From the IMG/VR virus record IMGVR_UViG_3300029910_000060, positions 1 to 38,320 of that record: a stretch of DNA of 38,320 nt; one strand, 5' to 3'. Under the pieces are notes generated by a model. That model searched no databases. It was given only the letters and a program-made list of their open reading frames with translations, and was not told where the DNA came from. The translations under genes were made by a program, and so were the position numbers. Below, piece after piece: positions 14,204 through 30,151 of the stretch. The stretch's first letter is position 1. Each line of letters begins with the position of its first letter. Origin of the DNA: a virus.

Positions 14204-14232
14204 ACTATAGCAGTTGCAAAACGAGAATACAA
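14204..14232 (-). promoter_or_regulatory. Sigma70-type promoter with shared phage box
   Basis: On the minus strand the -35 is TTGTAT (14232-14227) and the -10 is TATAGT (14209-14204), with a 17-base spacer. The spacer ends in GCAACTGC, part of the 18-bp element also found at 20392, 25198 and 30713. It drives the small secreted gene 24 bases downstream. The -35 touches the ATG of the divergent ATP-grasp gene, so occupancy could affect both. Confidence 0.75.
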
Positions 14233-15578
14233 TGCGAATTTTGGTGATCGATGTTGGTTCTAACGCTCTCGACTTGTGCATGCGCTGGCAGCAGCAAGGC
14301 CACGAGGTGCGCTGGTACGACAAGCCGCGCCCGGACGGCACGGACCGGCACGCAGGCGAAGGCATCGTCACCAAGATCACGGACTTCGGCGATTTGCGCA
14401 AGAAGTGGATCGGCTGGGCCGATATGATCTACACCCCTGACAACGTGTGCTATCTCGATTTGCTTGAACCGTACCGCAAGATCGGCTACCCGGTTTTCGG
14501 CTGCAATCTCGACGCCGTAGAGTGGGAATTGGACCGTGAAGTCGGGCAGAAAGTCATGGAAGAGTGCGGACTGAAGACGATTCCCGGCAAGACGTTTCAC
14601 GATTACGACACCGCCACGGCGTACGTGAAAAAGCACGGCAAGGCCTTCGTTTCGAAGCCCTCGGGCGATGGTGAGCGCGCCATGTCCTATGTCGCAAACA
14701 ACGCCGCCGATCTGGTCTACATGTTGCAGCGCTGGAAGGGCGTCGATAAATACCGTAAAGCCGCGAAGGAAATGGGTTTTATCCTCCAGGAGAAGGTGAA
14801 CGGCGTTGCCGAGATGGCGGTCGGCGGATGGTTCATCCCAGGCGTTGGCTGGTCGAAAGCCGGATGGGTTGAAAACTTCGAGCACAAGTCCCTCTTCGCT
14901 GGCGACCTGGGCGTAGCCACGGGGGAGATGGGTACGATCGTGCGCGTCGTGAAGAAGTCAAAACTCGCTGACATGATGCTTAAACCGATCACCGATCACC
15001 TTCACGCGGTTGGTTATGTCGGCTATGTTGACGTGGCCACAATTATCGACGAAGACGGTACGCCTTGGCCTCTTGAATTCACCATGCGCGACGGATGGCC
15101 TATCCGCCACAACCTGACATCGCTCATTGAAGGCGACCAAGCGCAGTGGATGCTCGATGCGCTCAATGGGCGCGATACGCTGAAGATCAAGACCGATTTG
15201 GTGAGCGCGAGTGTCGTTATGGCGCTGCCGGACTTCCCATACTCCCGCATCACGAACCGCGAACTGTGTGGCATTCCGGTCTATGGTGCCGAAGACTTAG
15301 CGCACCTCCACTGGTCGGAAATGATGATCGGTGATGCGCCGCGCGAGGTGAACGGGAAAGTTGTCGACCTGCCGGGGCCGGTTACGGCGGGTGATTACAC
15401 CCTGGTCGCGACCGGCGAAGGCGCGACCGTTTCCGGCGCTCGGCGAAGCGTGTACAGTGCGATCAAGAAAGTTAAAGTACCGAACAGCCCCTTCTATCGC
15501 GTCGATATCGGTTCGAAGATGCGAAAGCAGTTACCGGTTCTTCAGGCTCTCGGATTTGCAATAGGAATGGAGTATTGA
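14232..15578 (+). CDS. PurD-like ATP-grasp ligase
   Basis: The 448-residue protein resembles phosphoribosylamine-glycine ligase in architecture. It has an N-terminal nucleotide-fold domain (MRILVIDVGSN), an ATP-grasp lid with the VSKPSGDGERA strand-loop (140-150, probable ATP-binding K142), and a C-terminal catalytic strand DEDGTPWPLEFTMRDGWP (273-290) whose E282 would bind Mg-ATP. ATP-grasp enzymes join a carboxylate to an amine via an acyl phosphate. The usual GSGGREHA motif of true PurD is replaced by DVGSNALDL, so the substrate probably differs from the purine pathway. I chose ATG 14232 because the longer TTG start would lie in the opposing promoter. SD is weak. Nothing else for purine synthesis is nearby. 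Confidence 0.75.
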   Translation: MRILVIDVGSNALDLCMRWQQQGHEVRWYDKPRPDGTDRHAGEGIVTKITDFGDLRKKWIGWADMIYTPDNVCYLDLLEPYRKIGYPVFGCNLDAVEWELDREVGQKVMEECGLKTIPGKTFHDYDTATAYVKKHGKAFVSKPSGDGERAMSYVANNAADLVYMLQRWKGVDKYRKAAKEMGFILQEKVNGVAEMAVGGWFIPGVGWSKAGWVENFEHKSLFAGDLGVATGEMGTIVRVVKKSKLADMMLKPITDHLHAVGYVGYVDVATIIDEDGTPWPLEFTMRDGWPIRHNLTSLIEGDQAQWMLDALNGRDTLKIKTDLVSASVVMALPDFPYSRITNRELCGIPVYGAEDLAHLHWSEMMIGDAPREVNGKVVDLPGPVTAGDYTLVATGEGATVSGARRSVYSAIKKVKVPNSPFYRVDIGSKMRKQLPVLQALGFAIGMEY

Positions 15579-20420: not shown

Positions 20421-22493
20421 TCACTCTTTTCTATAGCGGAAACCCTCGAATCCAGCAGCGGCAAGCGGCAAACCTGGGGCCCAATCGTGCGGCGCTGCCA
20501 TGAAGTACGAAAGAGTCTTCGCGTCGCGCAGATTGTTGTCCGGCGTGTACGTAATCAGTTCATCGTGCACCCGCATACGGATGCTGTAGCCTTGCTTCAC
20601 GATTCGCGGCATGTGATAGAACATCACGTCGCGCGCGATCGCCTGACAGAGATTTTCGAACAGCTTGCCGCCATAAGTTGTCAGGCGTTGCCACTTACGC
20701 GAATACTGATTCATACCCATGTACGAAATTGAATTGCCCGCACGCGGTGCGGCGTAGGACAAATCTCGCCCGCTAGGCAACTTTACGCGCAGCCAATTGT
20801 CTTCTCGCCGGAACACGATCATATTCACGCGAAAGTCAGTGTGCGGTTCATTGATCGCGGCTCCCGCTGCGTCTTCGAGTTTCGCCCAAATCCCGGATAT
20901 CTTCGGGTTTGCCGCCCGCCACAGGCGTTTGATCGAGTCGCAAACACAAAACGTGTCGTGCTCCAGGCCGTACGTGTTTCGCTTCGTGTCAATCGACCAG
21001 TTCCAGAAGTTCTCTGCCTCCGCCCATACGTGACCAGGAATTGCCTCGCGCCCCACGCGTGCCAGCTCGTCCAAGTCAATGCCGTAAGTCGCGGCTCCGG
21101 TCAGGAAGGCCCCTACGCCGCCCGCGTAGGCAAGCATGAGCTCCATTACCTTCCCGATCTGACGAAGTTTCTTGGTGACCGATCCGGGGCTCACGCGAAA
21201 CGCTTCCGAGTAAGCCTTGATGTAAAGGTCTGGCCCGGTCCCCGCGTCGTAATCCCGAAAGGCCTGGAGTTTCCACTCTTCGCCCGCAATCCAGGCCGCG
21301 ACACGCCCTTCGATGTTCGCCAAGTCCGAGACAACAATCTTCCGACCCGGCGGCGCGATAATGACGCCGCGCATCGTGTTCGCGCACAGTTCCATCACGT
21401 TGTCGGTCACTAGATCGGCGCAGCCCGCCTTGATCGCTTCGATACCGGTTTCGATCTCTTCCGCTTCGAGCGTCGGGCGCATCATATTGCCCATTTGCAC
21501 CAGGCGGTGAGCGTCGCGACCGGTGCGACCGGCGCCGTTGAACTGGATGCCGCCCTTCAGGAACCCATCTGAGCTAGTAGACCGGATAATCCGTTTAAAC
21601 TTTGACACTGAACTTGTGCTGGCCATGAGTCTTATAGACAACAGCTCTCGTACACCGTCCGGTAAGGATGAGTCTGCCAGTCGGCGTTCAAGAGTTGCGG
21701 ATTGCATGTCGGGTAAAGAGACGCCGTGTTCTGCAAGTATGAATTTGAGAAGGGCGTCTCTTTGAGTGGCTGAAGATACCACTCCGCTCGTGGCGTCGTG
21801 AGTTCTTCCCGCGAGCGAAGTTTGCTCCGCGCCCACTGCTTCAATTGCAGCCTTTGCAAGTTCGAGATCGACATATACACCCTCGTTATTAATTCGTTGG
21901 TCGAGTTGCCAAAGTTCCATCTCCTTGGCGTTATTCGGGTAATTCCACTTCGGCATCTTCTGATGCAGGATACGCATCGAAGTAATGTCCGACTTCGCGT
22001 ACTCAACAAACCGCGTCCACTCTTCAGGATGCGTCTTGCGAGTCTTGCGCCGCAACTTCTGGTTAGCGGGTTGCGGCATGCAAAACATGCGCATGAGTTT
22101 GCGGCCTTCCTTGCTCTTCGCGACATCAGCGTCCAGCTTGAAGATCTCGCAAAGCGTACCGAGTGAGCCGGGCAGCCCGTGGCTGAAGGCTTGCACCATG
22201 GTGTCGCGGTGTTGACTTTCGTTTTGCATACGCGTCTGAAGCGGCGAGATTGCGCGCTTCAGCACAATACGATCAAACATGCCCGAATTATGGCCCCAGT
22301 ATTCAGTGCAGTTAATCAGTGCCAAGTCCAGAGTAGTCGGCATTGCTCCCGGCGCTGTCAGGTCCCAACACTGAACCGGACCGTCATCTATCGCCCACGC
22401 GAACAGCAGCACTTCAGCCTTTTCCGCGTATCGGTGCGCGCCGTCGTTAATCGGCGTTTCGGAATAGGTTTCGAGATCCCACCAGAGCTTCAT
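20421..22493 (-). CDS. Family A DNA polymerase with 3'-5' exonuclease
   Basis: The 690-residue enzyme has an N-terminal exonuclease domain with the first metal-binding pair D6 and E8 (WWDLETYSE). The C-terminal polymerase domain has motif A (VVSDLANIEGRVAAW, near 390), motif B (RQIGKVMELMLAYAGG, near 450) and motif C VHDELITY (H643-D644-E645). It would be the replicative polymerase of the phage. The ATG is coupled to the stop of the upstream 73-residue gene (ATGA), with little SD of its own. The organisation DUF2800-DUF2815-polymerase is widespread in prophages. Confidence 0.93.
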   Translation of the reverse strand: MKLWWDLETYSETPINDGAHRYAEKAEVLLFAWAIDDGPVQCWDLTAPGAMPTTLDLALINCTEYWGHNSGMFDRIVLKRAISPLQTRMQNESQHRDTMVQAFSHGLPGSLGTLCEIFKLDADVAKSKEGRKLMRMFCMPQPANQKLRRKTRKTHPEEWTRFVEYAKSDITSMRILHQKMPKWNYPNNAKEMELWQLDQRINNEGVYVDLELAKAAIEAVGAEQTSLAGRTHDATSGVVSSATQRDALLKFILAEHGVSLPDMQSATLERRLADSSLPDGVRELLSIRLMASTSSVSKFKRIIRSTSSDGFLKGGIQFNGAGRTGRDAHRLVQMGNMMRPTLEAEEIETGIEAIKAGCADLVTDNVMELCANTMRGVIIAPPGRKIVVSDLANIEGRVAAWIAGEEWKLQAFRDYDAGTGPDLYIKAYSEAFRVSPGSVTKKLRQIGKVMELMLAYAGGVGAFLTGAATYGIDLDELARVGREAIPGHVWAEAENFWNWSIDTKRNTYGLEHDTFCVCDSIKRLWRAANPKISGIWAKLEDAAGAAINEPHTDFRVNMIVFRREDNWLRVKLPSGRDLSYAAPRAGNSISYMGMNQYSRKWQRLTTYGGKLFENLCQAIARDVMFYHMPRIVKQGYSIRMRVHDELITYTPDNNLRDAKTLSYFMAAPHDWAPGLPLAAAGFEGFRYRKE

Positions 22494-22711
22494 ACGAGGT
22501 CCGAATATTGATCTTCAGGTTCGACGGAAAATTCCGCATGTACTTCGTCTTTTTCGCGCTTCATTTCTGAACCGCGAATTTCGTAAGCGGCCTTTAACGC
22601 CACGCCTGCTTTTTCAAACTTCAGTAGGTATTTCACGCACGACAGAAAAGAACCTTCGTGCACGGCTTTTTTTGTCCCGCAACGATTACGTAATAGGCCA
22701 TATTTCACCAA
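22490..22711 (-). CDS. Small unknown protein coupled to DNA polymerase
   Basis: The frame gives 73 residues from TTG 22711 (72 from GTG 22708). The first 55 residues are basic and mixed and the tail is acidic (KREKDEVHAEFSVEPEDQYSD). No good SD precedes either start, but the stop overlaps the polymerase ATG (ATGA). An ATG at 22564 would give only the acidic tail. No family recognised, and the start is uncertain. Confidence 0.45.
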   Translation of the reverse strand: MVKYGLLRNRCGTKKAVHEGSFLSCVKYLLKFEKAGVALKAAYEIRGSEMKREKDEVHAEFSVEPEDQYSDLV

Positions 22712-22724
22712 GTGTAATTAGCAG

Positions 22725-22784
22725 TTAGCATATGCGCACCCTTAACACCGCTCGGTATGGTGCTGCCGCTATTAGTGTTTTCAT
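22725..22784 (-). CDS. Putative 19-residue leader peptide upstream of the polymerase genes
   Basis: A strong SD (AAGGAGATCAAAA) precedes an ATG that encodes only 19 residues (MKTLIAAAPYRAVLRVRIC) before TAA. It follows a UUCG hairpin and ends 14 bases before the TTG start of the next gene. It may be a leader used for translational coupling or attenuation, or a remnant of a gene truncated here. No independent evidence of expression. Confidence 0.4.
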   Translation of the reverse strand: MKTLIAAAPYRAVLRVRIC

Positions 22785-22801
22785 TTTTGATCTCCTTCAG
22801 C

Positions 22802-22817
22802 AAGCCCCGAAGGGCTT
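22802..22817 (-). other. UUCG-tetraloop hairpin after the ssDNA-binding gene
   Basis: On the minus strand AAGCCC-TTCG-GGGCTT forms a six-pair stem closed by C(UUCG)G, an exceptionally stable tetraloop. It lies seven bases after the DUF2815-like stop and just before a strong SD. There is no T tract, so it is more likely an mRNA stability or partial attenuation element than a full terminator. Confidence 0.6.
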
Positions 22818-22823
22818 ACCGGG

Positions 22824-23426
22824 TTACGCGAGGTCGTCTTCCGCGTCGATGGCATCGAAACCTTCATCGGAAGGTCGCGATGCGCCGCCGAAGCTGTCGC
22901 CCGGACCGTCGAACTGCACGCCCAGGAGCCCGCAACGCATACCGCTATACGTGCCTGACTGTGCCCACATCTCTACCTTCGCGTTCACATAGCAGCCGGC
23001 GTAGATTACGCCTTCGGAACCCGTCAGGCGAAGCGCTTTACCGAAATGCTTGGAGTCAGGATCGCCATCCTTGATGTTGTGGAGAAAGAGCGGCGCACCG
23101 TCCTTCTGCTTGCGAATCGCGGACAGCGCGAACATGTTCTCGAAGCCGTCGTAGATTTCGCCGACTTTGTCTTTCTTGTTTTTGATGTACGAAAACTTGT
23201 TTTTGTTCGTGCGCATGTCTTCAAGGAAGGCTTCAGCCTTTTTGCCCCATGCGGCGGTCGCTTCACCGTTGATCGCGGCCTGAATCGCCTTATCGTTAGC
23301 GCTACCCGGCTCAACGATCAGCGTGCACGAGTGGCGGAAGTCGCCTTGGCCTTCGTACTGCGCCGGCGTGAACAGGTCGTCGATAAACGCGATGCGCACG
23401 TGCTTGAGTTGAACAATGGTTCCCAT
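22824..23426 (-). CDS. DUF2815-type ssDNA-binding protein
   Basis: The 200-residue protein matches the DUF2815 family (OB-fold, T7 gp2.5-like ssDNA-binding). The visible features are a VRIAFIDDLFTPAQY start, GQGDFRHSCTLIVEPG, a KDKVGEIYDGFENMFALSA segment, the AGCYVNAKVEMWAQ strand and an acidic tail (DAIDAEDDLA), as used by SSBs to recruit partners. It would coat single-stranded DNA during replication. It lies between the DUF2800 nuclease and the polymerase, the usual order. Confidence 0.8.
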   Translation of the reverse strand: MGTIVQLKHVRIAFIDDLFTPAQYEGQGDFRHSCTLIVEPGSANDKAIQAAINGEATAAWGKKAEAFLEDMRTNKNKFSYIKNKKDKVGEIYDGFENMFALSAIRKQKDGAPLFLHNIKDGDPDSKHFGKALRLTGSEGVIYAGCYVNAKVEMWAQSGTYSGMRCGLLGVQFDGPGDSFGGASRPSDEGFDAIDAEDDLA

Positions 23427-23436
23427 GATTTATTCC

Positions 23437-24681
23437 TTAACAGAGTGAGTCAATATCTTCAGAGTCGTCAACGGTTTCAAAACCGTCTTCAACCGGTTTG
23501 ATTTCAATAGCCGGACGTTTGTCCGAATCGAGTACGACATGCGGCTTGCCTTCCGGCTGGACGATCAGCGCTTCGATCTTCTTCAGACGTCGCGGTTGAT
23601 CCTTCAGCGCTTCGAGAATCGGCTTGGGGCCAAGCAGCTTGAACGAATACATCTGCTCAAGCTTCAGTCGGAAGCCCTTCATCATCGTTTCGGCTTCCTC
23701 GTCGTTCGCCCACGAGCGATTACCGCGCTTGCCCGCGACGACCTTCACGCCTGGCACTTTGCGGCCCGCGAACATCTCTAACTCGATGCGAGCGCGCACG
23801 GCTTTGATCCAGTCCTCGACCAGTTCCAGTTCAGCGAACTTAGGGCCGAGTTTTTCAATCGGGATCAGATCAACCGGGATCGGTTCCAGCGTTTCGAAAT
23901 CCGATTCAGTGATCGCCTCCACTCTCGCGAGGAGTGCCGGGCAAACCGCTTTTGCTTTGCACCACATGCAAGTCTTCTCGGAAGGCGCGAAGTCCTCTTC
24001 CTTCAAAGCACGCTCGCCAACCAGCTTGTGGATCAGGATGGCCTTCTCAAACTTTGGACGCGCGTCCGATACCCAGGCTTCCAAATCCTCGACCGTGAGC
24101 GTCCATTCGTTGCCGGTCCTGAGCGGCTGCTCAATGACAATCGTGATTTCCTTGAAGTCTTCGACCAAGCCGAACTTCTGCAATGCCCCGTGGCCGTACA
24201 TCATGCCTTGGGGATTGTTCTCGGCATCGACTTCCTGATAACCGAACTTCGCGTCAATCACGTCCGTTGTCGCGTGTCCGTCAGGCCACGAGATGATCAA
24301 CACGATATCCGCACGACCGGTCGCGCCTTCTTCGCCGGTAATCTGGCTAACAGGCACATCCTGCTCGATCTCGACAGTAACGGCGCAGCCTTGCGCTTCG
24401 TAATTCGCGATGCGATCGCGCACGTTGCTGACCACGGTTTGCACGTCGGCGGCGAACGACTTGTCAACCGCATGACCTTTCTTCAGTACGTGACCGAGAT
24501 ATGTTTCGGCATCCTTGCTGAACGCAAGGCACATACTCAGCAGTTCATGCTTGTCGGTTCCGAGATCCGCAGCCTTCGAGCTGCCGTCCGGTTGTCCCTT
24601 CTCCATCGCCAAAGCGTTCGCGCAGTTCAACACGCGATGCGCCGATGACGGGCTCGCTAGCGCGTGGTAGTCGTCAGGCAT
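23437..24681 (-). CDS. DUF2800-type RecB/Cas4-like nuclease
   Basis: The 414-residue protein (ATG 24681) has the PD-(D/E)XK layout of DUF2800: LASPSSAHRVLNC (C20), GTDKHELL (H45), TGRADIVL, and the DVIDAKFGYQEVD strand. A C-terminal Cys cluster (CMWCKAKAVC) together with C20 could hold an iron-sulfur cluster as in AddB and Cas4. It is probably a recombination or replication exonuclease working with the DUF2815 ssDNA-binding protein. I prefer 24681 over the longer frame because GGAAGA precedes it and it overlaps the preceding stop. The acidic tail ends in DDSEDIDSLC. Confidence 0.85.
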   Translation of the reverse strand: MPDDYHALASPSSAHRVLNCANALAMEKGQPDGSSKAADLGTDKHELLSMCLAFSKDAETYLGHVLKKGHAVDKSFAADVQTVVSNVRDRIANYEAQGCAVTVEIEQDVPVSQITGEEGATGRADIVLIISWPDGHATTDVIDAKFGYQEVDAENNPQGMMYGHGALQKFGLVEDFKEITIVIEQPLRTGNEWTLTVEDLEAWVSDARPKFEKAILIHKLVGERALKEEDFAPSEKTCMWCKAKAVCPALLARVEAITESDFETLEPIPVDLIPIEKLGPKFAELELVEDWIKAVRARIELEMFAGRKVPGVKVVAGKRGNRSWANDEEAETMMKGFRLKLEQMYSFKLLGPKPILEALKDQPRRLKKIEALIVQPEGKPHVVLDSDKRPAIEIKPVEDGFETVDDSEDIDSLC

Positions 24682-25105
24682 GGGATTCTTCCGGGTTGAC
24701 TTCGCCGGCCGCGACACGCGTTAGGTAGGCAACGGCTTCGGGCCACTGTGCTTCCTTCAATTCCTTGCCATTCGCGACGCCGAGACGGGAAAGCGCTGCA
24801 ACCGCCTTGTCTTTGGACTCCTTGCCAATCGCGATGATCAGCTTCCTTACGTCGTCATAAATTACCGGCGCGGATTCGGGCTCGGAAGGCGGCGAAGTGT
24901 CGGTAGTGGGCTTCGACTTTTTTGAGTCGGCGATTTCCTCTTTGATGATTTCCTGCTCGCGCTCCTTGATCTTCTCGGTTACGTCTGGCGTAAAGGTTGG
25001 CTCGCGAACGACTACCCGGCTGCTTGTAACCAAGTGCTGATTCAGGGCGTAAGTAAGCGCAAGAACCGCTTTCGTCAGTTCTTGAATGTCATTCTCTAAC
25101 GGCAT
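24674..25105 (-). CDS. First gene of the leftward replication operon, unknown
   Basis: The 143-residue protein has an N-terminal helix (DIQELTKAVLALTYALNQHL), a charged Glu/Lys/Pro-rich linker (about 40-80) and a C-terminal compact helical domain (VIYDDVRKLIIAIGKESKDKAVAALSRLGVANG). Similar two-part proteins precede DUF2800 genes in several prophage replication modules, but no function is established that I know of. GGAG precedes the ATG and the stop overlaps the DUF2800 start. Confidence 0.65.
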   Translation of the reverse strand: MPLENDIQELTKAVLALTYALNQHLVTSSRVVVREPTFTPDVTEKIKEREQEIIKEEIADSKKSKPTTDTSPPSEPESAPVIYDDVRKLIIAIGKESKDKAVAALSRLGVANGKELKEAQWPEAVAYLTRVAAGEVNPEESHA

Positions 25106-25144
25106 ATGTCTTTCTCCAATCGGTTGATGGGTAACGCAAGAAGG

Positions 25145-25173
25145 AATTTAGGCGCGAAAAACTGCGCTGTCAA
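25145..25173 (-). promoter_or_regulatory. Consensus sigma70 promoter of the replication operon
   Basis: On the minus strand TTGACA (25173-25168), a 17-base spacer and TAAATT (25150-25145) form a near-consensus promoter 40 bases before the first gene of the 9-kb leftward operon. It lacks the GCARYTGC box found in the divergent promoter 14 bases away, so the two directions are probably controlled differently. Confidence 0.85.
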
Positions 25174-25186
25174 GGTAAATTCGCAC

Positions 25187-25215
25187 TTGCGCAACCATTT
25201 TGCAATTGCTATAGT
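25187..25215 (+). promoter_or_regulatory. Rightward early promoter with shared phage box
   Basis: TTGCGC (25187-25192), a 17-base spacer and TATAGT (25210-25215) form the promoter. The spacer ends in GCAATTGC, a perfect palindrome and the symmetric version of the box in the other three promoters. The -35 lies in an 8-bp palindrome TTGCGCAA. It drives the repeat protein, the YdaS/Cro-like regulator and small genes. Confidence 0.8.
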
Positions 25216-25244
25216 GCAGTCACATAAACCCGAAGGAGAAAAGT

Positions 25245-25991
25245 ATGAAAGCATTTCGTGGTGACCCGGCAGTAAAAGAGAAGTACCTGGCGCGTCTAAA
25301 AGCCCATCACGCGGCTGATGAAATCATTCAAGGAACCGGTTACGACGGTTCGCACGGCTGCGCAGTAGGATGCACGCTCAACAAGTACGATCATCTCGCT
25401 TACGAACACGAACTCGGCTTGCCGCAGTGGCTTGCCCGACTTGAAGACAGGATTTTCGAAGGGCTTCCGGCTGTTGAAGCTCAGCGATTTGCGGTTGACT
25501 TCCTGGAAGCCGTACCCGTTGGCGCGAACGTCGACAAAGTACGTTGGCATCTCGCTATTCAACGGCACACACAGGCGCGCGATAGCCTGCTCAAGAATAA
25601 AGAACCATATGCGGTTCAGTGCGTTGCCGCTATCGAGCAGGTAATAGCGTATTGCGAGCTTGAAATCCTCGGCTCGGCGGCGGAGTCGGCGGCGGCGGCG
25701 CGGTCGGCGGCGGAGTCGGCGGCGGAGTCGGCGGCGTGGTCGGCGGAGTCGGCGGCGGAGTCGGCGGAGTCGGCGGAGTCGGCGGCGTGGTCGGCGCGGT
25801 CGGCGGCGCGGTCGGCGGCGCGGTCGGCGTGGTCGGCGTGGTCGGCGGAGTCGGCGGCGTCGGCGGCGTGGTCGGCGTGGTCGGCGGAGTCGGCGGCGGA
25901 GTCGGCGGCGGAGTCGGCGGCGGCGCATTTTCAGTGGGAAGCCAAAACGCTTCTCGAATTGCTCCGCGCAGCTCCGCAGGCCGCAGAATGA
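25245..25991 (+). CDS. Ala/Ser/Trp/Glu repeat protein
   Basis: The 248-residue protein has a conserved-looking N-terminal domain of about 140 residues with HHAADEIIQG, GCAVGC, a short YEHELGLP motif and RIFEGLP. A low-complexity tract follows (about 144-227) made of SAAES, SAAWSA and SARSA units, then a short helical tail. Proteins with this N-terminal domain and SAAWSA-type tracts occur in phages and bacterial genomes, but their role is unknown. The tract probably forms a long alanine-rich helix with Trp, Arg or Glu at regular steps. GAAGGAGAAAAGT precedes the ATG, and the stop overlaps the next start. Confidence 0.75.
   Translation: MKAFRGDPAVKEKYLARLKAHHAADEIIQGTGYDGSHGCAVGCTLNKYDHLAYEHELGLPQWLARLEDRIFEGLPAVEAQRFAVDFLEAVPVGANVDKVRWHLAIQRHTQARDSLLKNKEPYAVQCVAAIEQVIAYCELEILGSAAESAAAARSAAESAAESAAWSAESAAESAESAESAAWSARSAARSAARSAWSAWSAESAASAAWSAWSAESAAESAAESAAAHFQWEAKTLLELLRAAPQAAE
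25674..25925 (+). repeat. TCGGCG-based short tandem repeats
   Basis: About 250 bases are built from TCGGCG followed by GAG, TGG, CGG or directly by the next unit, giving 6-, 9- and 15-base periods. The tract stays in frame and encodes the Ser-Ala-(Ala)-Xaa helix of the repeat protein. Expansion or contraction by multiples of three would change protein length without loss of frame. Confidence 0.9.
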
Positions 25992-26257
25992 CAATCGCGA
26001 AATACAAAGACTGGATGGCGAAATCCGCTATCGATGAGAAGCGAGAACTTGCCATCAAGGCTCGCACGTCGCTGTCCCTGCTCTACCAATTGGGGTACGG
26101 AACGCGGACGGCGAGCCCCGAGTTGGCGGCGCGCCTTACGCGCGGTATCGCTTCGATCAACAAGCGCAAGCGCCACGCCCCCTTGCCGGAAGTGGCGCAA
26201 GGTGATTTGTCGCCTGTATGTGCCAAATGCCGTTTCTACAAGGAGTGCGAACAATGA
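25988..26257 (+). CDS. YdaS/Cro-like regulator with C-terminal Cys motif
   Basis: The 89-residue protein has a small helix-turn-helix region (about 23-55, LAIKARTSLSLLYQLGYGTRTASPELAARLTRGIAS) like YdaS/Cro-type phage regulators. It ends with CAKCRFYKEC, a possible zinc-binding or redox motif. It is coupled to the repeat protein (ATGA) and transcribed from the promoter holding the symmetric GCAATTGC box, so autoregulation through that box is plausible (inference). It is the best candidate for the factor behind the four-promoter regulon. Confidence 0.6.
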   Translation: MTIAKYKDWMAKSAIDEKRELAIKARTSLSLLYQLGYGTRTASPELAARLTRGIASINKRKRHAPLPEVAQGDLSPVCAKCRFYKECEQ

Positions 26258-26357
26258 CATCTCCCGCCCGCTCACCGATCTCGCAACCGACGCCTCGCGC
26301 ATCGACGCATAACGCCCCGTAGTCCGCGCACCTACTGCGACAAATCGAGAGGAAGTG

Positions 26358-26543
26358 ATGAAACGCCATTACATCCGCTGTACGTTCCTCGACACAGATG
26401 GAGACACATCGTGGAAATTTCTGACGTTGCCTAACAAACCCGAAGTTGAGTTTATGACGACAAATTACGACCTTGCCTGTGATATTGCAAATGCATTGCA
26501 GGAACAGGACGAAACACAAACCTACGATATATGGACGGTATGA
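26358..26543 (+). CDS. Small unknown early protein
   Basis: The 61-residue protein is a compact mixed alpha/beta chain (HYIRCTFLDTDGDTSW through YDIWTV) with no motif I recognise. GAGGAAG lies just upstream of ATG 26358. It is part of a run of three small rightward genes between the YdaS-like gene and a terminator, typical of early host-takeover genes. Confidence 0.6.
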   Translation: MKRHYIRCTFLDTDGDTSWKFLTLPNKPEVEFMTTNYDLACDIANALQEQDETQTYDIWTV

Positions 26544-26546
26544 GAA

Positions 26547-26714
26547 ATGAGGCAATGGATGCTTGTTTTGCCTGCCTTCGTCTACATACGTCTTGTACGT
26601 CGCTATGGCGAGCGCTTCTGGATTGAGCCGAGAACAGCGTGGCGATCTGGGATTGAGGCGGCTTATGACGGGCACACGGTGTTGGTAAAGCTAAAGGGGA
26701 ATAGTGATGATTGA
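26547..26714 (+). CDS. Small unknown early protein, basic
   Basis: The 55-residue protein has a hydrophobic/aromatic N-terminus (MRQWMLVLPAFVYIRLV) and a basic remainder with RRYGERFWIEPRTAWRSGIEAA. It starts three bases after the preceding stop and overlaps the next gene by eight bases. There is no clear SD, so reinitiation is likely. Family unknown. Confidence 0.5.
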   Translation: MRQWMLVLPAFVYIRLVRRYGERFWIEPRTAWRSGIEAAYDGHTVLVKLKGNSDD

Positions 26715-26937
26715 ATTCGATTACTACGTCGTAGAGAAAAATACATTGCTCGTGGTCGCAGGATTCAACGATTACATATCAGCCGTGTGCTTTAGGGATG
26801 CCGAATGCGATACAGATCGATTCAGCGTTTTCTCTTCGCGCGCCCTGAAGAAGCGAAATGCACGCGTTATTCCGGAAACAGTGGGGATAACGATCACGTC
26901 GGTAGACCCGACGATTCTCAGCAGAAACAGTGCATAA
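26707..26937 (+). CDS. Small unknown early protein
   Basis: The 76-residue protein (ATG 26707, with an in-frame GTG one codon earlier) has a beta-alpha-beta look (FDYYVVEKNTLLVVAGFNDYISAV) and a Ser/Arg/Val C-terminal half. An AAGGGGAA SD is present. It is the last gene before the terminator at 27009. No family is recognised. Confidence 0.55.
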   Translation: MIEFDYYVVEKNTLLVVAGFNDYISAVCFRDAECDTDRFSVFSSRALKKRNARVIPETVGITITSVDPTILSRNSA

Positions 26938-27008
26938 CCCCGCAAACGCTCGCAGAGGCGAAGCGGAAAAAAGTGATAGACTAGCCCCGATCTCCTTCGG
27001 TTGTTCTT

Positions 27009-27034
27009 AGCCCGCCTCGCGCGGGCTTTTTCTT
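27009..27034 (+). terminator. Strong rho-independent terminator
   Basis: AGCCCGC and GCGGGCT form a perfect seven-pair stem with a CTCGC loop at 27009-27027, followed by TTTTTCTT. It ends the rightward early transcript that begins at 25215. Confidence 0.9.
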
Positions 27035-27061
27035 GCGCGCTGCGTTTTAGAGGCGTATGCT
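27033..27061 (+). promoter_or_regulatory. Putative promoter of the AlpA/primase module
   Basis: TTGCGC (27033-27038), a 17-base spacer and TATGCT (27056-27061) lie just after the terminator and 34 bases before the AlpA-like start. The -35 is the same as at 25187, but the GCARYTGC box is absent. The -10 matches only four consensus bases. Confidence 0.5.
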
Positions 27062-27094
27062 TCCCGGACACCGTTGGACAACAGGAGATCACCC

Positions 27095-27271
27095 GTGCTT
27101 ATCCCCATCGCCGATGTTCTGGCGCTCATACCCATCGCCCGCTCCACCCTCTATCTCCGCATGGCGGAACCCGACTTCCCGAAACCCGTTCGCGTCGGCG
27201 GACGCGTGTTTTGGAAGCAGGAAGAGATTCTTGCCTATATCGATTTCAAGAAAGATTCTGCGGAGGCGTAA
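27095..27271 (+). CDS. AlpA-like DNA-binding regulator
   Basis: The 58-residue protein has the AlpA/MerR-like winged HTH layout: LIPIADVLALIPIARSTLYLRM (helix-turn-helix), DFPKPVRVGGRVFWKQEEILAYID (wing and final helix). AlpA-type proteins act as transcription activators or excisionases. No integrase is present, so a regulatory role is more likely. GTG 27095 is chosen because AGGAG lies seven bases upstream. The stop overlaps the next start by one base. Confidence 0.8.
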   Translation: MLIPIADVLALIPIARSTLYLRMAEPDFPKPVRVGGRVFWKQEEILAYIDFKKDSAEA

Positions 27272-27858
27272 TGGTCGCAGTTCTTTTCGCCCGAAGAGAC
27301 AGCGTTTATAAGACATTTCCTGATTGCGATGTCTTCGACGCCGACAGGGATGCGCTGAACTACTCCGGGGGGCAGTCGATAGTCGCGCACCCTCCCTGCC
27401 GTGCTTGGGGCCAATTGGCGCATATGGCTAACCCGCGCCCTGGTGAACGTGAATTAGCTTTATGGGCGGTTGACATGATCCGCCTTCACGGGGGTGTCCT
27501 CGAACATCCGCGCGCATCTCGTTTGTGGAAAGAAAAGCCGTTGCCGCCGGTCGGGGAGCTTGACGCTTGGGGCGGCTTTACGCTTCAAGTGCGCCAGTTC
27601 GATTGGGGCCACAAAGCCGAGAAAGCCACTAAGCTCTATGTGTGTGGTTGCGACCCCGCAGACGTGCCGCCGCACCCTGTTCGCGTAGGCGAACCGCGAT
27701 TTGTTGTCGGAACTAGTGGTCGGCGTAAAGATGGTACGCGTTTGGGCGGTCGGCCCGAAATACCGAAAAGTGAACGAGAAGCGACCCCTCTTGCATTCGC
27801 TGAATGGCTGGTCGAGCTGGCTGGATTGTGTCGCGCACCTATCGGGGATCTCTGCTAA
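27271..27858 (+). CDS. PPC-motif protein related to C5-cytosine methylases, motif I absent
   Basis: The 195-residue protein has VAHPPCRAWGQLAHM (PPC at 41-43, the catalytic-loop motif of C5-methyltransferases), GGVLEHPRAS (79-81, motif VI position) and WGHKAEKATKLYVCG, which resembles the phage methylase strand FGHPARKxTWL. The SAM-binding motif (FxGxGG) that should start such an enzyme is missing, and the target recognition region is short. It may be a divergent or degenerate methylase or a different enzyme reusing the fold. It lies between AlpA and the primase, coupled to both (TAATG and TAATG). Confidence 0.55.
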   Translation: MVAVLFARRDSVYKTFPDCDVFDADRDALNYSGGQSIVAHPPCRAWGQLAHMANPRPGERELALWAVDMIRLHGGVLEHPRASRLWKEKPLPPVGELDAWGGFTLQVRQFDWGHKAEKATKLYVCGCDPADVPPHPVRVGEPRFVVGTSGRRKDGTRLGGRPEIPKSEREATPLAFAEWLVELAGLCRAPIGDLC

Positions 27859-29843
27859 TGCCGCAATACTTCAAAGACCTGGGCGAGCAGCTGCTCGATC
27901 ACGGGTACCTGATCGTGCCCCTGCCGCCAGGTAGTAAGGGGCCGCGCATCAAAGGCTGGCCGTCTCTCGCGCTCGACAAGCCCGCATTTCACCGGATGGC
28001 GGCTAACGGGTCGGCGGACGCTGGCATCGGCGTACTGGCCCGTTACACGCCCGCCATCGACGTGGATATCCTGGACAAGAGCGCCGCCGACGAGATGTCC
28101 TTGATCATCGATGAGATCTTCGCCGGCCAGGCTCTCATGACGCGCACGGGGCGGGCACCCAAGTTCCTGATTCCATTTCGTTCTGACGACCCTTTCAAGA
28201 AACTTACCTCCAACGTCTACACGGATGGAACCCATGACCACAAAATCGAAATCCTGGGCGATGGCCAGCAGTGGGTCGCCTACCACGTGCACCCTGAAAC
28301 CGGAAAGCCTTACGAGTGGTGGGATGGATTGGGAGACGCTGGAATCATGGGTTCGGCTCAGTCAGAGCTGCCTGCACTTTCCCGATCAGACGCTCAACGC
28401 GTTATTGACGCATTCGAAGTACTTGCGGCGACGCGTGTAGCTTCAGGTGCTTGGCGAGCGAAGGATGTGGGGCAGCGCCCGGACATTCGCGAACGAGGCG
28501 GAGATGATCCGTTCTCTGTTTATTCGGAACCAGTGGGTAAATCCGAAATAGAAGTACGCGAACTGCTTGCACGGCACCCGAACGAGGAAGCGGATTACGA
28601 CCACTGGTTCAAGGTGCTCGCAGCCGTCCACCACGAGCTCGGCGACGCCGGTGAGGATATCGCTCGGACGTGGAGCACTGAAGCGCACAAGCACACCGAC
28701 GAGAAGTTCGACCTGACCTGGAATTCGCTCGGGCGCTACACCGGTCGTCAACTCACGCTTCGCAGTTTGCTGAAAGGCGAGAAACCGTCCGCGCCTGAGA
28801 AGTCGCTTGAAGGCAACGAGTTCGTGCAGGCGGCGCAGTTCGCATCCGAGCAGCGCATCGAGTGGCTTGTTAAGAAGGTGCTGCCGAAGAGTGGTTTGAC
28901 GATCATCTACGGCGAACCAGGTTCGGGTAAGTCGTTCTTTGCGCTGGATTTAGTTGCCCACGTGGCGCGTGGCTTGCCTTGGCGGGGCCTACGAACGAAG
29001 CAGTGCTCGGTAGCGTACGTCGCGGCGGAAGGCGTTGCAGGCTTCGGCAATCGCCTCAAAGCCTATGGCGAAGGCCACGGCGTTGATCTGTCGGTGTTGC
29101 CTGTGTACGTACGCGGCGGGCAGCTGGCAATCAAAGAACAGGCGGTCGCGATCGTAGACGCCGTGCTTGGCTTGCCGCACGTCGGGGTTATCGTTATCGA
29201 CACGCTCGCTGCCGTGACCCCTGGCGCGAACGAGAACGTATCCGAAGACATGGGCGTCGCTATCGAACGCGCAAACTTCATCATCCAATCGACCGGCGCG
29301 GCGGTCATCCTCATCCACCACTCGACGAAAGACGGCGGCACCCTGCGCGGCTGGAGCGGTTTGCTCGGTGCCGCCGACTCGACCATCAAGATCGAGCGCA
29401 GGGATGATAAACGCACGGCGCACATCGAGAAGATGAAGGAAGGTGAGGATTCGGGTAAATACGGCTTCAAGCTGCGGATTGTGGATCTCGGGCAGGATGA
29501 TGATGGCGATCCGGTCACAAGTTGCGTTGTCGATGAGTCAAAGGATATTGCTGAAAAAGGCAATAAGAAGGAACGCAAGCCGCGCTCAGGTGACTTCGAA
29601 ACTTCCGACAACTACATCAAAGCGCGAGACTTCCTCGCGATTATTGAGCGCGCGATGGGCGTCGGTGTTGACGCATCGATGACCGAAGATGAGATTGTGG
29701 AAGCTATCCAAGCGGACCCTAAAACTAACGAGATGGGCCAGGACGACTACCCGCCACGGCGTTATATCACTCCCACGTTGCGGACCCTAGTGCAAAAAGG
29801 CAAGATTTGCAGGGAGGGCCGCGCCATAAAGCTTTGCGCGTGA
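27858..29843 (+). CDS. Primase-polymerase fused to RepA-like hexameric helicase
   Basis: The 661-residue protein carries two modules. The N-terminal archaeo-eukaryotic-type primase-polymerase (about 10-190) has GIGVL, catalytic D68 and D70 (AIDVDI) and the HKIEILGDGQQWVAYHVHP stretch. A PriCT-like helical domain (about 228-295) follows. The C-terminal RecA-type AAA module has Walker A GEPGSGKS (352-359), Walker B VIVIDTLAA and a RepA-like IHHSTKDGG loop. It would open the origin and prime replication. ATG 27858 overlaps the preceding stop. The last helices (ARDFLAIIERAM onward) resemble a winged-helix tail. Iteron-like repeats start eight bases after its stop. Confidence 0.9.
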   Translation: MPQYFKDLGEQLLDHGYLIVPLPPGSKGPRIKGWPSLALDKPAFHRMAANGSADAGIGVLARYTPAIDVDILDKSAADEMSLIIDEIFAGQALMTRTGRAPKFLIPFRSDDPFKKLTSNVYTDGTHDHKIEILGDGQQWVAYHVHPETGKPYEWWDGLGDAGIMGSAQSELPALSRSDAQRVIDAFEVLAATRVASGAWRAKDVGQRPDIRERGGDDPFSVYSEPVGKSEIEVRELLARHPNEEADYDHWFKVLAAVHHELGDAGEDIARTWSTEAHKHTDEKFDLTWNSLGRYTGRQLTLRSLLKGEKPSAPEKSLEGNEFVQAAQFASEQRIEWLVKKVLPKSGLTIIYGEPGSGKSFFALDLVAHVARGLPWRGLRTKQCSVAYVAAEGVAGFGNRLKAYGEGHGVDLSVLPVYVRGGQLAIKEQAVAIVDAVLGLPHVGVIVIDTLAAVTPGANENVSEDMGVAIERANFIIQSTGAAVILIHHSTKDGGTLRGWSGLLGAADSTIKIERRDDKRTAHIEKMKEGEDSGKYGFKLRIVDLGQDDDGDPVTSCVVDESKDIAEKGNKKERKPRSGDFETSDNYIKARDFLAIIERAMGVGVDASMTEDEIVEAIQADPKTNEMGQDDYPPRRYITPTLRTLVQKGKICREGRAIKLCA

Positions 29844-29851
29844 TTTGTCGT

Positions 29852-29920
29852 ACCCTAGCGGACCCTAGCGGGCCCTAGCGGACGTTACCTACTTACCCTA
29901 GCGGACCCTACGGACCCTAC
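29852..29920. repeat. Iteron-like 10-bp tandem repeats, candidate origin
   Basis: ACCCTAGCGG occurs at 29852-29861, 29862-29871, (GCCCTAGCGG) 29872-29881 and 29895-29904. A 9-base variant follows at 29905-29913 and the truncated ACCCTAC at 29914-29920. Three copies are in direct tandem. They lie directly after the primase-helicase gene, where plasmid and phage origins often carry binding sites for the initiator. Confidence 0.75.
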
Positions 29921-29953
29921 ACCCCTGTCTTTAGACAGGGTAGGGTAGGGTCC
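29912..29953. repeat. Long inverted repeat after the iterons
   Basis: GGACCCTAC (29912-29920) is the inverse complement of GTAGGGTCC (29945-29953). Between them CCCTGTCT-TT-AGACAGGG (29923-29940) forms an eight-pair hairpin with a two-base loop. No T tract follows, so this is unlikely to be a terminator. It could be the site of strand opening or primase loading. Confidence 0.75.
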
Positions 29954-29974
29954 GAAATTACTTACGGAGTCGTA

Positions 29975-30151
29975 ATGTTTCTAAGATTGCGTATTTCTGA
30001 GACAGGCGGAGCGTATTACGTGAACTCAGACTTGATTCTGTATTTCGGCAAGCGCCACGAAGCAACCGAGATTCACCTGGTCGGAGGCGAGGTCCGCCGA
30101 GTGCGTGAAACGCCTGCCGAAATTCTCAAACAACTGGCGGAGGCGAAGTGA
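29975..30151 (+). CDS. Small unknown protein after the putative origin
   Basis: The 58-residue protein is beta-rich (MFLRLRISETGGAYYVNSDL, then IHLVGGEVRRV) with a helical tail (EILKQLAEAK), and looks like a small folded domain. GGAG precedes the ATG, and the stop overlaps the next GTG start (GTGA). Family unknown. Confidence 0.6.
   Translation: MFLRLRISETGGAYYVNSDLILYFGKRHEATEIHLVGGEVRRVRETPAEILKQLAEAK

Follow-up and report, generated by a model that had tools for sequence, protein, structure and literature searches.

A candidate iteron-type replication origin behind a phage primase-helicase gene, with a repeat unit that changes along with part of the protein

The question

What is a dense cluster of short repeats, direct and inverted, doing in the gap directly behind the gene of a viral primase-helicase? 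The sample is a 38,320-bp virus record (IMG/VR IMGVR_UViG_3300029910_000060), referred to below, at its full length, as the window. A sequence-only reading had proposed an initiator-adjacent iteron array and hence a candidate replication origin. The analysis supports that proposal as a candidate, without showing origin activity. The reading favored here is that the array is likely to be the phage's iteron-type replication origin, acting in cis to the upstream gene; its origin activity and its binding by the protein are inferred.

The virus record and its replication genes

The replication set on the minus strand of the window comprises a family A DNA polymerase and an Enc34-type single-strand-binding protein, together with a DUF2800/PD-(D/E)XK exonuclease and an SNF2-type helicase. 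The proposed initiator is a 679-aa protein with PrimPol (PF09250, as in the pRN1-type PrimPol origin), PriCT_2 (PF08707), AAA_25 RepA-like helicase (PF13481) and C-terminal winged-helix-like domains; an SF3 helicase domain is absent from this protein, and an AAA_25/RecA-type domain stands in its place. The features that matter for what follows are these:

27804 to 29843, plus strand: primase-helicase gene, the proposed initiator (679 aa)
29604 to 29840, plus strand: codons of the C-terminal winged-helix-like domain (about residues 601-679), the proposed iteron-binding domain
29713 to 29721, plus strand: exact CGGACCCTA unit within the gene, its distance kept in the relative L003
29757 to 29795, plus strand: codons of the predicted recognition helix (residues 652-664), RRYITPTLRTLVQ
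29781 to 29789, plus strand: exact CGGACCCTA unit within the recognition-helix codons CGG ACC CTA (R660 T661 L662)
29849 to 29881, plus strand: three tandem 10-bp iterons (CGTACCCTAG / CGGACCCTAG / CGGGCCCTAG, in the register of CGGACCCTAG)
29895 to 29919, plus strand: further iterons, ACCCTAGCGG (at 29895), CGGACCCTA (at 29902) and CGGACCCTA (at 29911)
29911 to 29954, no strand assigned: dyad with outer and inner arms and the tip CTTTAG
29950 to 30000, no strand assigned: A/T-richer stretch directly behind the dyad (G+C 0.38 against about 0.58 around it), a possible unwinding zone on weak evidence

(Some observations on the record as a whole: the order of pol A, Enc34-type SSB, DUF2800 nuclease and PrimPol genes at 20421-29843 is that of the Casjensviridae (BcepNazgul, Enc34), and this Casjensviridae-like replication block adjoins podovirus-like head genes; a phage ORF at 14214-15578 has two Pfam matches to domains of the purine-synthesis enzyme GARS (phosphoribosylglycinamide synthetase), of which one passes the cut-off and the other falls below it; and in ORF 25245-25991 the heptamer GTCGGCG (read as CGCCGAC on the opposite strand) occurs 16 times, at 25703-25865, a repeat that is found with other copy numbers in many of the relatives whose locus extends that far, its distance from the stop codon of the downstream primase gene being about 3-4 kb.)

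The repeat array and its dyad

The gap runs for 131 bp from the end of the stop codon at 29843 to the next ATG at 29975, and it is filled by a 10-bp array (CGGACCCTA / ACCCTAGCGG) and an inverted repeat. Exact copies of ACCCTAGCGG start at 29852, 29862 and 29895, a copy with one mismatch (GCCCTAGCGG) starts at 29872, and shortened copies are found at 29905 (ACCCTACGG) and 29914 (ACCCTAC). The outer 10-bp arms of the dyad are CGGACCCTAC (29911-29920) and GTAGGGTCCG (29945-29954), the right arm being an inverted iteron; they enclose an 8-bp hairpin made of CCCTGTCT (29923-29930) and AGACAGGG (29933-29940). The array and its position are thus shown. What the sequence-only reading had described, namely four 10-bp repeats (three of them in tandem), two shortened copies, a long inverted repeat with an inner eight-pair hairpin, and the 131-bp gap after a primase/RepA-helicase gene, held in every part; its end point, 29953, was off by one, the second arm ending at 29954. 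It missed the two exact CGGACCCTA copies inside the gene: the 38-kb window holds six exact matches to this unit, all of them within 29713-29954. Nor is the density of repeats what shuffled sequence delivers: in the 160 bp that follow the stop codon the most frequent 6-mer has 6 copies, where shuffles average 2.4, and none of 300 dinucleotide shuffles reached as high a count.

Single-stranded DNA of the array region is predicted to fold (z = -3.7). An A/T-rich unwinding element is represented by no more than a mild dip (lowest 50-bp G+C, 0.38); no strong element is present. The possibility of a CRISPR was dropped, the units being 10 bp long and arranged head to tail without spacers.

Might the dyad instead be a transcription terminator, or a signal for RNA processing, behind the primase gene, with the direct repeats "merely" remnants? 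The argument for this alternative is the strong hairpin of the 131-nt transcript (-54 kcal/mol, z -2.7). Against it stand the absence of a T run behind the stem and of any terminator-like site at the array (a terminator element would have refuted the sequence-only reading), and the lack of any match in Rfam. (A tRNA search also found nothing.) Moreover, a hairpin in RNA can form without direct repeats, which nearly every relative nonetheless keeps. We regard this explanation as very unlikely.

Constant layout and variable units among relatives

The origin reading gains most from comparison. (A technical note: relatives were found in IMG/VR virus contigs, which may be incomplete, and a scan of genome contigs yielded none, so that the group is known here from virus contigs only; the presence of an array was judged by shuffling the 160 bp that follow the stop codon, with P <= 0.01 taken as significant.) Among 32 non-redundant relatives with the same gene type, 31 have a significant array directly behind the stop codon; the exception, L017, has no significant array, yet the dyad is present. 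Only 81 of 3,696 other 160-bp windows in the same loci (2%) reach the observed count, and some of these are the GTCGGCG coding tandem repeat. Looking for the same array beside the primase gene in relatives was a check that the sequence-only reading had proposed; it was passed, with the same layout in 31 of 32, and is the most informative of its tests.

L003 and L004, whose proteins are 66% and 65% identical to that of the window, keep both the array and the dyad, with CTGACCCTA replacing CGGACCCTA in L004. More distant relatives have an array at the same place, built of a different unit; beside ACCCTAGCGG in the window there are CACACCCTA, CTCAACCT, CTCACATT, CCACCGAT, GCTCCGAC, TTGCTGAC, GCTGAGGTT, CTCATTCA, TGCTCAA and others. 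The unit sequence is almost wholly different between relatives and the layout is constant: direct repeats, a dyad, then inverted copies. The arms of the dyad vary with the unit, and its tip in most families reads CTTTAG or CTATAG, or differs little from these (TATAAG, CTAAAG, CTAAGG). The stem-loop directly 3' of the gene thus retains its structure while its sequence varies, which is the criterion met by origins of the pRN1 type. This conservation of layout is shown.

In several pairs of relatives the array is more alike than the adjacent C-terminal codons (identities of 0.93 v 0.81, 0.95 v 0.84 and 0.98 v 0.83), and the 150 bp beyond it are often no more alike than random DNA (0.41-0.47, with a baseline of 0.46). 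It is likely that the array is under selection.

Arrays are confined to a part of the wider protein family: they occur in 17 members of a further set of 45 new families, and a related protein type without such an array (e.g., L173, L174, L176-L186) provides a negative control. No array is present in BPP-1 or in Caulobacter phage GB2A, although their primases or helicases are related. (A search for the exact array pattern also returned L010, L012 and L013; these are chance matches, without an array.)

Looser repeats are found behind the primase gene in some larger phages with the same replication type (BcepNazgul, Enc34 and several contigs), whose primases match the PrimPol half only. Of these looser-repeat loci, 16/39 pass the shuffle test, and they are treated as leads. 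Some contain looser arrays in both orientations (AGGTCCGAAT, TTTGTAATA, ATACCGAAT; L092:7508-7950, L093:6619-6960, L067:7457-7710, L073:7478-7750). Separately, a CRISPR-like tandem repeat (about AGATCACCCCGCACGAGGGGATGGCCAGGGCCTGC) lies downstream of a phage primase gene at L065:8150-8420.

The array changes together with part of the protein

The sequence-only reading also missed that unit and protein change together. Among the relatives, the protein's four parts (PrimPol, PriCT_2, helicase and C-terminal domain) have been swapped independently and recombine freely, and this makes it possible to ask which of them the array follows. In partial rank Mantel tests, corrected for the other domains, array similarity correlates with the C-terminal domain (partial r 0.27-0.34, P = 0.001) and about as strongly with the helicase domain (partial r 0.25-0.28, P = 0.001); it is uncorrelated with PrimPol or PriCT_2. 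Individual swaps agree, and they separate the C-terminal domain from the helicase. L004, L026 and L029 share 82-84% of their C-terminal domain and have related units (GCTGACCCTA in L004 and L029, GCTGAGCCT in L026), with the helicase domain of L004 merely 27-28% identical to those of L026 and L029. Conversely, L027 and L036 have helicase domains that are 93% identical, C-terminal domains that are 55% identical, and different units. It is thus shown that the array changes in concert with the C-terminal and helicase domains. Since the array out-conserves the adjacent codons in several pairs, and the DNA beyond it is often at the random level, array and C-terminal codons tend to move as one cassette. 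A caveat attaches to this: because the array adjoins the C-terminal codons, physical linkage alone may possibly account for part of the correlation between protein and array.

The C-terminal domain is proposed to read the unit. An AlphaFold model built with 12 sequences is compact (pLDDT 81) and has the winged-helix order helix-strand-helix-helix-strand-strand. Its structural neighbors are mostly winged-helix domains (best Z about 8-9, moderate by the tool's own note) and include Fur-type, MarR-type, and PadR or IclR-type regulators, MCM and ORC proteins. Foldseek found only weak matches for the model (none with E below 0.001), again mostly of the winged-helix type, and PDB sequence searches with the winged-helix profile returned nothing significant. 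A second domain type (the L005 group) has the same predicted order of elements at lower confidence (pLDDT 68), and profile comparison links both C-terminal domain types with a probability of 92%. For the proposed initiator, then, a winged-helix fold is predicted and the unit tracks the C-terminal domain; there are no binding data.

The unit within the recognition-helix codons

One of the two units inside the gene lies in codons of the predicted recognition helix (CGG ACC CTA, encoding RTL). Is this peculiar to the window? It is not: each genome's own unit tends to recur at one fixed place in these codons. Units were defined from each genome's non-coding array only, and then sought at the recognition-helix codons. 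For 20 representative families of all domain types, the summed mismatch was 22, against 42 for synonymous codon shuffles (0/300 as low) and 46 when units were exchanged between genomes (0/2,000 as low). For the 18 families with the window's domain type there were 13 mismatches, against 36.6 for synonymous shuffles (0/1,000 as low) and 37.9 for unit swaps (0/5,000 as low), and in half of them (9/18) the exact unit is present at the helix codons. The triplets differ along with the units: CAC ACC CTA (HTL) in L015, unit CACACCCTA; CTC ACA TTA (LTL) in L035, unit CTCACATT; CAC CGA TTA (HRL) in L036, unit CCACCGAT; CTC CGA CTA (LRL) in L027, unit GCTCCGAC; CTG ACC CTA in L165, unit CTGACCCT; in L163 an inverted copy of the unit occupies the site. 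Seven of the 18 families were fetched after the idea had arisen: the match is exact in three of these (L156, L163, L165) and off by one base in another two (L106, L160), and it fails in the remaining pair (L100, L155). In the 17 array-bearing families of the 45-family set, the codon match in the last 120 nt again beats all 150 shuffles, and other C-terminal domain types are mostly without an embedded unit. The match between unit and recognition-helix codons is thus shown, with two reservations: 1) the gaps of L017, L160 and L163 hold only two copies, leaving their units poorly defined; 2) the 18 families are not fully independent, the units of the window, L014, L029 and L004 being related.

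A bolder reading is that the recognition-helix codons are themselves an iteron, the same DNA encoding the residues that read it; the case for it and the case against it seem to us nearly balanced. If it is true, a change of unit alters the helix at once, so that origin and initiator may switch specificity together, and there is a possible route to their joint change, e.g., gene conversion between array and gene.

The deflationary alternative is that the array is a recombination hotspot or a junk repeat at a module boundary, and the helix-codon match a local duplication without function. In its favor, the protein modules do recombine freely and identity falls directly after the array. Against it, the arrays beat adjacent codons in conservation in several pairs, the dyad's layout and tip persist through complete change of sequence, and arrays are limited to some helicase families (17/45). 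This too is a very unlikely explanation.

How the origin might work

Returning to the reading of the array as an origin, one can envisage the following sequence of events: 1) the C-terminal winged-helix domain would bind the 9-10-bp units, including the two inside its own gene; 2) the bound copies would assemble the hexameric helicase at the dyad; 3) the A/T-centered tip of the dyad (CTTTAG) and the A/T-richer DNA behind it would be opened or extruded; 4) the fused PrimPol would prime on the exposed strand; and 5) the phage's own family A polymerase and single-strand-binding protein would then take over. Binding, unwinding, priming and origin activity are all inferred, and to our knowledge there are no binding or replication data for any member of the group.

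Some results count against the origin reading: a strong A/T-rich unwinding element is lacking, BPP-1 and GB2A are without an array, and the minimum of cumulative GC skew lies at about 25 kb, about 4.9 kb from the array. The sequence-only reading had looked to a skew turning point at the array, and with the minimum at about 25 kb rather than 29.9 kb that check failed to the letter. The skew test is weak, even uninformative, because skew follows gene direction, which flips at about 25 kb.

The absence of a skew turn at the array also favors a third alternative, in which the array is an operator, bound by the primase-helicase or by another factor, that controls downstream genes, with replication starting elsewhere. 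The array does lie directly before a small plus-strand gene (29975-30151), and initiators often autoregulate. Against an operator, the array is behind the initiator gene and not in front of it, no promoter-like site was found near it, and the genes that follow differ among relatives that share the array (flank identity being near random); the array therefore travels with the protein and not with a regulated gene. We consider the operator unlikely, less so than the terminator or the hotspot.

It has long been puzzling how an initiator and its many binding sites can shift specificity in step. The protein family described here has ten or more distinct types of unit, domain swaps that arose in nature, and a unit that keeps its place in the codons of the recognition helix, and the recognition code and its evolution are therefore directly testable. 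The array would also provide a simple sequence rule for locating origins in uncultured phages with such a replication protein. As to what drives the diversity of units, attack by origin-cutting enzymes or decoy origins can be entertained as no more than a speculative possibility.

Comparison with known systems

Elements of this arrangement are familiar, singly or in other combinations. (Only open-access full text was searched, and the absence of earlier reports does not prove novelty.) The PLE RepA DNA-binding domain and origin repeats swap as a module (PMC8263062), as domain and array do here. The drive is known in that case, an origin-cutting nuclease (Odn) that attacks the origin, whereas no cause of the diversity has been established for the window phage. 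In phage lambda, the origin lies within gene O and consists of four 18-bp iterons and an A/T-rich element (PMC3349717). The likeness is in iterons placed within the initiator gene; the differences are that O is not a primase-helicase and that the A/T-rich element is also within O. The lambda iterons encode a linker and are not known to encode a recognition helix.

RSF1010 oriV brings together a RepA-type helicase, iterons and hairpin priming sites at one origin (PMC4234260), as the window phage appears to do, but divides the work among three separate proteins (RepA, RepB' and RepC), and it is RepC that binds the iterons, not the helicase. In SaPI Rep and SCCmec Cch2, the helicase's C-terminal domain binds short direct repeats just downstream of the gene (PMC7581432), a placement like that seen here. 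These systems differ in having a separate primase or primase-polymerase protein and another helicase class, and no report of a unit in their recognition-helix codons was found in the open-access full text searched.

Phage P4 alpha combines primase, helicase and a C-terminal winged-helix origin-binding domain in one protein that acts on iterons (PMC4234260). The overall design is that proposed for the window phage; the P4 primase is of the Toprim type, and the primase and helicase of the window phage come from other families. The Sulfolobus plasmid pRN1 requires for its replication a stem-loop 3' of its PrimPol-helicase gene, and its authors proposed the same idea for phage BIP-1 (PMC4234260). 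Its ORF904 protein is likewise a PrimPol-helicase with a C-terminal winged helix, the required dyad likewise lies directly 3' of the gene, and structure rather than sequence is conserved. The helicase of pRN1 is of the SF3 class, and the plasmid lacks iterons; the window phage has an AAA_25 RepA-like helicase, a dyad built from iterons, and units inside the gene as well. By analogy, the origin proposed here is likely to be one like those of P4 alpha, SaPI Rep or pRN1, yet hypervariable.
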